DNA from: a virus
Virus record (IMG/VR): IMGVR_UViG_3300021962_000040
Coordinates: 1 to 64,000 of that record
Reading direction: 5' to 3' (one strand)
DNA: 64,000 bases
A program made the translations under genes and the position numbers. Shown here one piece after another: positions 13,335-21,103 of the stretch. Under the pieces are notes generated by a model. The model was not told where the DNA came from and made no database searches. It saw nothing but the letters and a program-made list of their open reading frames with translations. Numbering within the stretch: position 1 is the first letter of the stretch; every line of letters starts with the position of its first letter.

Positions 13335-13561
13335 TTGATAAATGTTTTAAAATGAATAAGAAGATCTCTTCCAGGCTCACCCTGGTTGTGGATTTGATTG
13401 AACATAGTTTACTGTTCACCTGTTGTAAGTGCACTACAGAGCAGGGTCCATCACATTATACCTTGAGGCATTTAAAACTTATTGGGTAATTACTCCCATA
13501 AGTCAAGGTTTCTTTCAACGGTGCTAATCTGTCTTATGTAAGAGATCTTTCTTACTCATAG
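13335..13561 (-). ncRNA. Structured non-coding segment downstream of tRNA-Leu
   Basis: 227 nt without an ORF. On the minus strand it folds into several perfect hairpins: 13538-13555 (GTAAGA/TCTTAC, 6 bp, directly after the tRNA) and 13371-13385 (CCAGG/CCTGG around GTGAG) just before the helicase gene. Base composition is less AT-rich than flanking genes. It may be the 3' half of one RNA with 13646-13812, with the tRNA embedded, or a processed spacer. Confidence 0.5.
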
Positions 13562-13645
13562 TAGCCGGGATGGGACTTGAACCCACACGAGCAAATGCTC
13601 AAGAGATTTTAAGTCTCTCATGTCTACCTTTTCATCACCCAGCTA
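13562..13645 (-). tRNA. tRNA-Leu(UAA)
   Basis: 84-nt class II tRNA. Acceptor TAGCTGG pairs with CCGGCTA, the D arm contains AAAAGGTAGAC, the anticodon stem AGAGA/TCTCT holds loop CTTAAAA... with anticodon TAA, there is a long variable arm (TGAGCATTTGCTCG, itself a hairpin), and the T arm has GTGGGTTCAAGTCCCA. No CCA is encoded. TTA is a very frequent Leu codon in the phage genes, so the tRNA fits translational supply. Confidence 0.95.
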
Positions 13646-14061: not shown

Positions 14062-14074
14062 ATTAATAATTTTG

Positions 14075-14148
14075 TGATCCCATCTGGACTTGAACCAGAA
14101 ACCTACAGCTTAGAAGGCTGTTGCTCTATCCAATTGAGCTATAGGACC
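14075..14148 (-). tRNA. tRNA-Arg(UCU)
   Basis: 74-nt tRNA. Acceptor GGTCCTA/TGGGATC with discriminator A, D arm AGCTCAATTGGATAGAGC, anticodon stem ACAGC/GCTGT with loop CTTCTAA (anticodon TCT), T arm CTGGTTCAAGTCCAG. No encoded CCA. It decodes AGA, which is by far the commonest Arg codon I see in the structural genes of this window. Confidence 0.95.
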
Positions 14149-19271: not shown

Positions 19272-19502
19272 TTATCCATTTAAGATTTCAATTTCCTTTT
19301 TAACGAGTGCATCAGTAACTTCCTTCTGCATCTTACATGTGTATTCATAAAGCTCAACAAAGTAATAAACATCACATCCGGCTTCATCTATGCACACTTG
19401 ATTGATCTTGTCCATCACCGATTGTAATTCAGCTAGTCTCTTATCTTCACGATTCTTAATCATTTCAAGTGTCATAAAATTTAATTCATCTAATAGTTTC
19501 AT
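19272..19502 (-). CDS. Hypothetical helical protein, 76 aa
   Basis: 76 residues, a single long amphipathic helix region (LLDELNFMTLEMIKNREDKRLAELQSVM, in part) with a Cys-bearing turn (CIDEAGCDVYYF). It is the first ORF after the large structured RNA region, so its leader may be part of that RNA. Function unknown. Confidence 0.7.
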   Translation of the reverse strand: MKLLDELNFMTLEMIKNREDKRLAELQSVMDKINQVCIDEAGCDVYYFVELYEYTCKMQKEVTDALVKKEIEILNG

Positions 19503-20536
19503 ATAAATAGATTTTAATTAATACTGTACCACTCTGTATTTACACGGGCTTGTGACCGTCATTGGCTACATTAGTACAAGGGCTGAGTGTTGACCCTTAT
19601 GGCAATAGTTTTAGAATGTTTCCATCCTTTACACACACCAACATTACTGCAGGTATATTGCACGTTCACAGATTTAGATGTCTGCCATCACTACCTTGAG
19701 AGTTATAGTTTCATTTTCACACCAACTTCCTTGCGGGATTCACAGGCTGCCACCTGTTAGATAGATACTACTCACTCTACTTACTATCTGTCTTGCGGAC
19801 GTCAAGTCTGTACATATTTCAGTACAATAAGAACATTGTGTTCCCAAGGTCCAAGAAGGATTTTGCTTTGTCATATTAGTTATGGGATACAACCCTAAGT
19901 TAATAAGAAAAGGATGGATGAAGGAAGTTCTCCTTGGTTGTATAACATGCTTGCTTTTGACAAGTTTAGTTACCAACTCCCTTCTACTTTCAGCGGCCAG
20001 GCTTACTCATTGATTACAATTACTCACGACACGGTATTTCTACCAGCATCTTCACTGTAAACTAATAACAGATCCCCAATTGGCGGTTGGTACTACTGTT
20101 ATCTAACCATACACTTATTACGCTTTCACGCTCAACACCATTTCCATCTGGTGTCTACAACTCTCTTACCCTGTAGGGCCATTCCAAGTTGCAGAAGTAT
20201 GATTACCTTTCAGTGGCATGCTAATGCATGGCCTGTTCTTTCTTAAGGAACAGACTTTATTCCATCACTGGATTATCCTTTGGTCACGAAGGCTGACCTG
20301 TTGTTTCAGTAACCTGACGAGCAGGCTTAACGTACACACCATGAGTATTTCAACTCTGAGGGTAACAACTTGTATACTTATACAGAGATACATGCTAACC
20401 CATTACGTCTAATGGAGCATATACTCTGGATATACATTTAGGTATATCAGCCTATTGGTCTTGTAACTATACTGGACCAACCCACGCCAGCAGCTTACTG
20501 GATATTTGCCTGGTTAAAGGAAAGGCAACAATACTA
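19503..20536 (-). ncRNA. Candidate giant structured non-coding RNA (about 1 kb)
   Basis: About 1.03 kb with no convincing protein on either strand, unlike the packed surroundings. On the minus strand it is full of perfect stem-loops, for example (plus coordinates): 20429-20448 (7 bp, 6-nt loop), 20233-20253 (6 bp), 20135-20154 (6 bp), 19759-19789 (6 bp), 20401-20414, 20282-20298, 19921-19935, 19578-19598 and 19743-19756 (4-5 bp), plus long-range pairs such as 20067-20071 with 20096-20100. Several loops are GAAA/GCAA-like. Size, phage setting and tRNAs in the same arm recall the giant RNAs GOLLD and ROOL, but I cannot assign a family. No tRNA is seen inside it. Confidence 0.65.
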
Positions 20537-20806
20537 TTATCTGAAGTTATCATATGGACTATGATAAGTTATTTGGTCAGAGCCAGGGATGTACTTCTCA
20601 AAGGTTACATTAGGACCTTGCCAGTAAACCATCTTGCGGGTTATCTGACACCAAAGTCTTGCCATCCAAAGAGTGGGAAATACAAAGACCCGGTAACCTT
20701 TTCTCATATACTGAAGCTTAAGAAACAGTAGAGAGTAAGTATCCCTAGTAGTGATAGACTCATATGTATTATAAGTGGTCACTATGTATGTTTTTTTCTT
20801 GATCAT
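20537..20806 (-). CDS. Hypothetical protein, 89 aa (longer form possible)
   Basis: From the ATG at 20806: MIKKKTYIVTTYNTYESITT, then LLFLKLQYMRKGYRVFVFPTLW in outline and an aromatic C-terminus. Codon choice looks protein-coding. The same frame is open back to an ATG at 21025 (162 aa), adding a hydrophobic segment (LKLLYFLFVCVLLFEW), but that part overlaps RNA hairpins and has less convincing sequence. I prefer the shorter form, with ATAATAATAGAT just upstream of its ATG. Confidence 0.5.
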   Translation of the reverse strand: MIKKKTYIVTTYNTYESITTRDTYSLLFLKLQYMRKGYRVFVFPTLWMARLWCQITRKMVYWQGPNVTFEKYIPGSDQITYHSPYDNFR

Positions 20807-21020
20807 AGCTATATCTATTATTATGGTGAGACAAGTGGAATGATAGGTTTGATTGTGGTAATATGCGGGGTATTTGGCCACCCACTCAAACAGTAACACA
20901 CAAACAAATAAAAAATAAAGCAGTTTTAACTGGTGCTTAGCAGGTAAGTGGTCCTCTTGTACAGATTCATCCGCTATCAACTGGTGAATGTGTATGCAAG
21001 GTGTGTGCAAGGTGGAACAA

Positions 21021-21103
21021 AGCATAGTTAACTTATCTGCAAGTAACTATGCTCAGTTCCTTCTGGGTTCAACTGGGTTTCCCCAGTTCCTGCTTTAGGC
21101 AGG
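21021..21103 (-). ncRNA. Three consecutive perfect hairpins after the 112-aa gene
   Basis: Minus-strand RNA order: CCTGC/GCAGG with the gene's own stop codon in the loop (21089-21103); AACTGGG/CCCAGTT closed by a GAAA tetraloop (21071-21088); and a 10-bp perfect stem AGCATAGTTA/TAACTATGCT with a 13-nt loop (21021-21053). No T-run follows, so this looks like a structured RNA or processing/stability element, perhaps the 5' part of the larger RNA region. Confidence 0.6.

Follow-up and report, generated by a model that had tools for sequence, protein, structure and literature searches.

Judged by its sequence, the RNA encoded on the minus strand at 19503-20536 of the 64,000-nt stretch of viral DNA analysed here (the window) is a divergent branch of GOLLD and not a new class of giant RNA. 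A predicted self-cleaving twister ribozyme lies directly behind it, and we consider it probable that ribozymes in this position free GOLLD with a defined 3' end from the leftward transcript. With somewhat less assurance, we favour the wider reading that interchangeable ribozymes from three or more unrelated classes (twister, pistol and HDV-like), together with a widespread module of twister architecture, would be the standard GOLLD 3'-end makers in a large and mostly uncultured group of phages, with further classes hiding in 3' modules still to be assigned.

GOLLD env-38 forms a closed cage in vitro, a 14-mer seen by cryo-EM whose cap is formed by the 5' domains and whose function is unknown, and ROOL RNA too forms an RNA cage (PMC12286853). 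In one Lactobacillus prophage, GOLLD was dispensable for phage production, according to work cited in PMC7567579. Self-cleaving ribozymes, for their part, are enriched near phage genes for reasons that have been called unknown (PMC10085705; PMC4604425). A search of the open-access literature found no paper in which GOLLD is connected with either twister or pistol, and neither ribozyme is mentioned in the paper on the GOLLD structure (PMC12286853). GOLLD itself being a known family, what is new is its ribozyme-tailed 3' end; this novelty is provisional, because the literature search covered open-access papers.

Genomic context of the RNA

The window comprises bases 1-64000 of a 117,753-base IMG/VR virus record, in which genes are directed mostly leftward to the left of ~21.5 kb and rightward to its right. 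The interval 19503-20536 is the exact intergenic gap between two protein genes on the minus strand (Table 1). An initial annotation of this DNA had seen no convincing open reading frame across the 1.03 kb; the gap was confirmed, with no frame open across homologues, and the boundaries proposed then are nearly exact for the RNA. In the upstream 89-aa frame, 25 of the 47 changes relative to two relatives (L057 and L059) fall at third codon positions, and there are no indels. A longer ORF of 162 aa (20537-21025, minus strand) is misleading, as it is interrupted by stops in its first half in relatives, and only its last 89 codons (20806-20537) look coding. A PHROG search with the product of the downstream 76-aa gene gave no match.

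Table 1. Features of the RNA locus and its surroundings in the window.
Feature	Position	Strand	Evidence and remarks
89-aa gene, upstream	20537-20806	-	Ends at the gap start; no indels and third-position bias relative to L057 and L059
Hairpin pair close to the presumed 5' end	20448-20429 and 20428-20383	-	
5' domain of GOLLD RNA	19985-20450	-	Covariation in 15 homologues; 5' end approximate
GOLLD 3' domain	19580-19984	-	RF02032 model positions 1-416 of 416, 88.8 bits, E 3e-23; covariation
3' terminal hairpin, GGGUCAACACUCAGCCC	19580-19596	-	Best-conserved end of the subfamily; stem with compensatory changes across 20 homologues
Type-P1 twister (predicted)	19526-19577	-	RF03160 positions 1-68 of 68, 56.8 bits, E 1.2e-11
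76-aa gene, downstream	19272-19502	-	Transcribed in the same direction; starts 23 nt past the twister
tRNA genes	13561-13644 and 14074-14148		5.4-6 kb farther leftward from the RNA

The terminase, portal and head proteins of the record matched PHROG head-and-packaging families, and the best phage matches of the terminase were crAss-like and Flavobacterium phages, at ~27% identity; on these grounds, the source phage is probably a distant relative of crAss-like phages with a Bacteroidota host. The RNA had been described as lying near tRNA genes, which do exist leftward of it, although at a distance of 5.4-6 kb the wording was loose. Between both tRNA genes and a helicase-like gene lies a freshwater-1 RNA (RF02979, 75.9 bits; 13393-13455, minus strand). 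No sigma-70-like promoter was found on the minus strand upstream of the RNA, a consensus that says little for a Bacteroidota phage, and no intrinsic terminator was found on the minus strand 3' of GOLLD within the window.

Assignment to GOLLD

A scan of the whole window at Rfam gathering scores returned only the two tRNAs and the freshwater-1 RNA, with nothing in the interval, and the identity of the RNA was found by an E-value search instead. The 3' domain matches the RF02032 model over its full length, at a score below the GOLLD gathering cut-off of 150 bits, and therefore default Rfam scans miss this RNA. Its total length is ~870 nt, in agreement with a family encoded by phages or prophages, often close to tRNAs, whose members frequently exceed 800 nt; the presumed 5' end was placed at ~20450 by the first conserved hairpin.

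Compared with GOLLD (RF02032; env-38), the window RNA shares the full-length match in the 3' domain, a less conserved 5' domain, a phage-encoded length of >800 nt and the same strand order. It differs in its score (88.8 against 150 bits) and in what follows it, namely a predicted self-cleaving ribozyme, whereas the canonical GOLLDs L076 and L077, which score 192 and 180 bits, are situated among tRNAs. A profile of the 5' domain had no match in either of these loci, and for this reason the window branch may carry a different 5' type.

The giant structured phage RNA proposed by the initial annotation, on the minus strand and GOLLD-like in size and setting, is thus borne out, with the Rfam model search suggested there finding GOLLD below its gathering score and no ROOL. 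The resemblance to GOLLD stands at E 3e-23, and that to ROOL, alike in size and phage setting, falls away: ROOL was rejected because its covariance model found no match here even with E values as high as 10 allowed. That the RNA might be a new class had also been raised, and the full-length GOLLD match speaks against this; a giant-RNA class unrelated to GOLLD is very improbable in our view. The score under the Rfam cut-off and the 5' domain without counterpart in L076 or L077 would suit novelty, yet the whole model was matched and relatives match it down to 5e-39.

Homologues were gathered via a neighbouring 112-aa gene and RNA pattern searches, and the same GOLLD subfamily was found at ~27 other distinct loci. 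The branch members match GOLLD with E values from ~1e-12 to 5e-39, every match lying below 150 bits, and some were detected only with a profile built in this analysis; by these matches, the window RNA and its relatives form a coherent branch of GOLLD that goes undetected in default Rfam scans. L108 and L109 gave partial, low-scoring GOLLD matches. A blastn search of a phage collection returned nothing for the window RNA or for its relative L129, and GOLLD had no match in six named crAss-like and Flavobacterium phages, which is not proof of absence; therefore, there is no cultured host to offer. Among genome contigs, a first pattern search gave nothing and a second mostly chance matches. L138, a contig of a Campylobacterales bin, and L140, of a Bacteroidia bin, carry the same GOLLD branch and are perhaps prophages or misbinned phage contigs.

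Conserved structure and coding potential

Both domains keep a conserved secondary structure, with covariation far above controls. Compensated double changes are displayed by 62 of the 72 RNAalifold pairs in the 3' domain (20 homologues) and by 69 of the 86 in the 5' domain (15 homologues). Controls, computed in Python, were shuffled alignments and slid partners: paired cells reach 94.0% in the 3' domain and 94.6% in the 5' domain, against 70% after shuffling and 32-46% with slid partners, and doubly changed cells number 358 and 309, respectively, against 97 +/- 9 and 95 +/- 8. Two features of this comparison favour structure, namely that the structure was taken from the alignments under test and that shuffling disregards relatedness, yet the margin is large. 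Furthermore, the minus strand of the gap folds at -280.6 kcal/mol, compared with -254.7 kcal/mol in shuffles (z -3.2, only 20 shuffles).

Within the 3' terminal hairpin, ACACUCAGC is invariant among 20 homologues. This hairpin corresponds to one predicted initially at 19578-19598, and further early predictions (20233-20253, 20135-20154 and 20282-20298) are likewise conserved with compensatory changes. The predicted hairpin at 20429-20448 has a counterpart with other bases at the equivalent place in L106/L107, where this 5'-hairpin site lies directly past the upstream gene's stop codon. Two observations that the initial annotation had named as evidence against an RNA, conserved codons and uncompensated stem changes, were not borne out: no conserved codons were seen in homologues, and the stems are compensated.

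A protein gene was rejected, as every one of the six frames holds stops in 20 homologues (7-38 per frame per 850 nt), indels are frequent among homologues and the stems are compensated; these same findings reduce a coding or decayed coding region to a negligible prospect, despite the ORFs of up to 78 aa listed within the gap.

A predicted twister ribozyme behind GOLLD

Two bases separate the GOLLD 3' end from the twister on the same strand, which is the sole significant twister match (19577-19526) in the 117,753-base record. The initial annotation was correct in assigning a GOLLD-like RNA to the interval and overlooked the twister in its last 80 bases. The score of 56.8 bits falls below the RF03160 cut-off of 67.2 bits; in the model alignment, the sequence keeps UAA, GC, L4 CAAGCC, UAAA and GAG.G, with a compensated change in the T1 pseudoknot, from CCC/GGG in the consensus to CAC/GUG. 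As in type-P1 twisters (RF03160), P1, UAA, P2, L4 and the GAGGG-type strand follow in order, and T1 and T2 complementarity is retained; the window copy differs in having no P3, in its T1 CAC/GUG and in lying directly behind a giant RNA. Cleavage would presumably occur between U19573 and A19572, 7 nt beyond the GOLLD hairpin.

Locus L046 is 98.8% identical near the ribozyme and has the same outer stem and GAGGG strand, with a 127-nt core replacing 32 nt. This core swap alone separates window 19569-19536 from L046 6867-6993, and the assembly of L057 shows a run of N exactly at the swap site, as if the population were mixed. The core of L046 represents a conserved module, found directly behind GOLLD in L123, L129, L134, L215, L224, L255 and L310 as well; in these seven loci and in L058, the module lies 5-15 nt past GOLLD.

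The module was found in >120 viral stretches, represented here by 110 unique copies, in most cases away from GOLLD and at times with two copies per locus (L182-L261 and others, plus L058, L123, L129 and L134). Its layout is UAAUGCACC...UUCCCAAGG...CAGUUGUAAU, a variable insert and AUUACAACUGAGUGCAGAGGG, and it also has a CCCAAGG loop and GAGGG. Its P1 is variable and pairs only in the UAA/GAGGG register (z 7.1, against -1 and -2 in shifted registers), and its 5-bp P4 is intact in 106 of the 110 unique copies, with >10 different sequences. No Rfam model matches the module; its plan is that of a twister, so that it appears twister-like, and it is possibly an undescribed ribozyme subclass.

Other elements behind GOLLD in relatives

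Pistol ribozymes (RF02679) and an HDV-like fold (CPEB3, RF00622), whose folds are unrelated and which are absent from the window, take the same place behind GOLLD in relatives. Pistol starts 6 nt past GOLLD in G091 and G099 and 5 nt past it in L204, where its score of 33.9 bits narrowly misses the 34.5 cut-off. In G102 it comes after the twister-like module, and in G090 and G094 it lies ~280 nt beyond GOLLD, past an insert of no assigned family. The CPEB3/HDV-like fold was detected in G070 and G075, which are closely related to each other (E 0.009 and 0.03, respectively); partly read by eye, it displays a P1 starting with a G-U pair, a P2, a 3-bp P3 (loop UUCACGU) and a P4, and we regard the evidence for its HDV-like identity as weak. 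Intrinsic terminators stand <=10 nt from the GOLLD end in L125 and L118, and a tRNA-His 13 nt past it in L309.

In the remaining 3' flanks, an ORF begins at once after GOLLD or the sequence has no family match. Apparently structured sequence lies directly 3' of GOLLD in eight loci (L163, L166, L167, L168, L170, L172, L312 and L313), for which no convincing match was found in Rfam, and L301 differs from L303 by an insert of ~165 nt bounded by CAAAACTCTC/GAGAGTTTTG; these flanks and this insert are candidates for further ribozymes.

The search of 28 phage records gave five significant pistol matches and two strong twister matches, every one of them located 3' of a GOLLD RNA and on its strand; one weak twister match (E 0.05) lies elsewhere in G101. 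When loci were grouped by their last 60 nt into distinct ends, with the window's twister merged with L046, a ribozyme motif occurred within ~20 nt downstream of GOLLD in 10 of 28 ends and in none of 24 upstream regions. This is an undercount because exact patterns were used; conversely, L204, L215 and L224 were found through the module pattern alone, and without them the count is 7 of 25. More than half of the distinct loci carry no recognised ribozyme.

Discussion

The position, class and interchange of the elements behind GOLLD are direct observations, as are the identity and conserved structure of the RNA, and the exchange of unrelated ribozymes, terminators and a tRNA at one spot is best explained by a common requirement for a defined 3' end; we infer cleavage and its timing, 3'-end maturation as its purpose, and particle assembly. 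In the proposed sequence of events, the minus strand from ~20450 to 19573 would yield the GOLLD RNA, transcribed leftward with the flanking small genes, and the twister directly behind the 3' hairpin is predicted to cut ~7 nt past the GOLLD domain, which would free GOLLD with a defined end bearing a 2',3'-cyclic phosphate and give the downstream mRNA a 5'-OH. Because no minus-strand terminator follows GOLLD in the window, the twister is the one evident release route there. In relatives, the twister-like module, pistol, the HDV-like fold, an intrinsic terminator or an adjacent tRNA would do the same job. The cut of a twister or HDV-like ribozyme falls at the 5' side of the ribozyme, so that hardly any tail stays behind. 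Pistol is cleaved close to its own 3' end, and ~55 nt of it would remain on GOLLD; therefore, the trimmed GOLLD ends would not be alike. The freed RNA may assemble into a multimeric RNA particle, by analogy with GOLLD env-38; a 14-mer is not to be assumed here, because the env-38 cap is built from 5' domains and the 5' type of the window RNA may differ.

The short distance from the twister to the 76-aa gene (23 nt), with similarly short distances in L224 and L255, would also suit a ribozyme serving the downstream early mRNA, whose 5'-OH leader would alter stability or translation while GOLLD remained a passive neighbour. We hold this to be unlikely, since GOLLD is constant while the gene that follows varies between phages, and since the terminators that replace ribozymes in L125 and L118 would not serve a downstream gene. 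Still less probable is a reading of the ribozymes as selfish or mobile passengers, which would frequently end up behind GOLLD and do nothing for the RNA. The wide distribution of the twister-like module, mostly away from GOLLD and at times in two copies, and the swapped core as the only difference between L046 and the window are what such passengers would lead one to expect; against this, the same few bases are occupied by no fewer than two classes that Rfam matches firmly (twister and pistol) and by two more types, and the 3' elements lie on one strand and never upstream of GOLLD. Release of GOLLD with a defined 3' end thus remains our preferred reading.

The Rfam cut-off hides this GOLLD branch, and the result defines the 3' end that structural studies of the branch require, while GOLLD 3' flanks without a recognised element are a place to seek new ribozymes. 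The exchange of ribozyme classes, terminators and a tRNA at one spot suggests a testable role for phage ribozymes, namely that of defining a giant RNA's 3' terminus.
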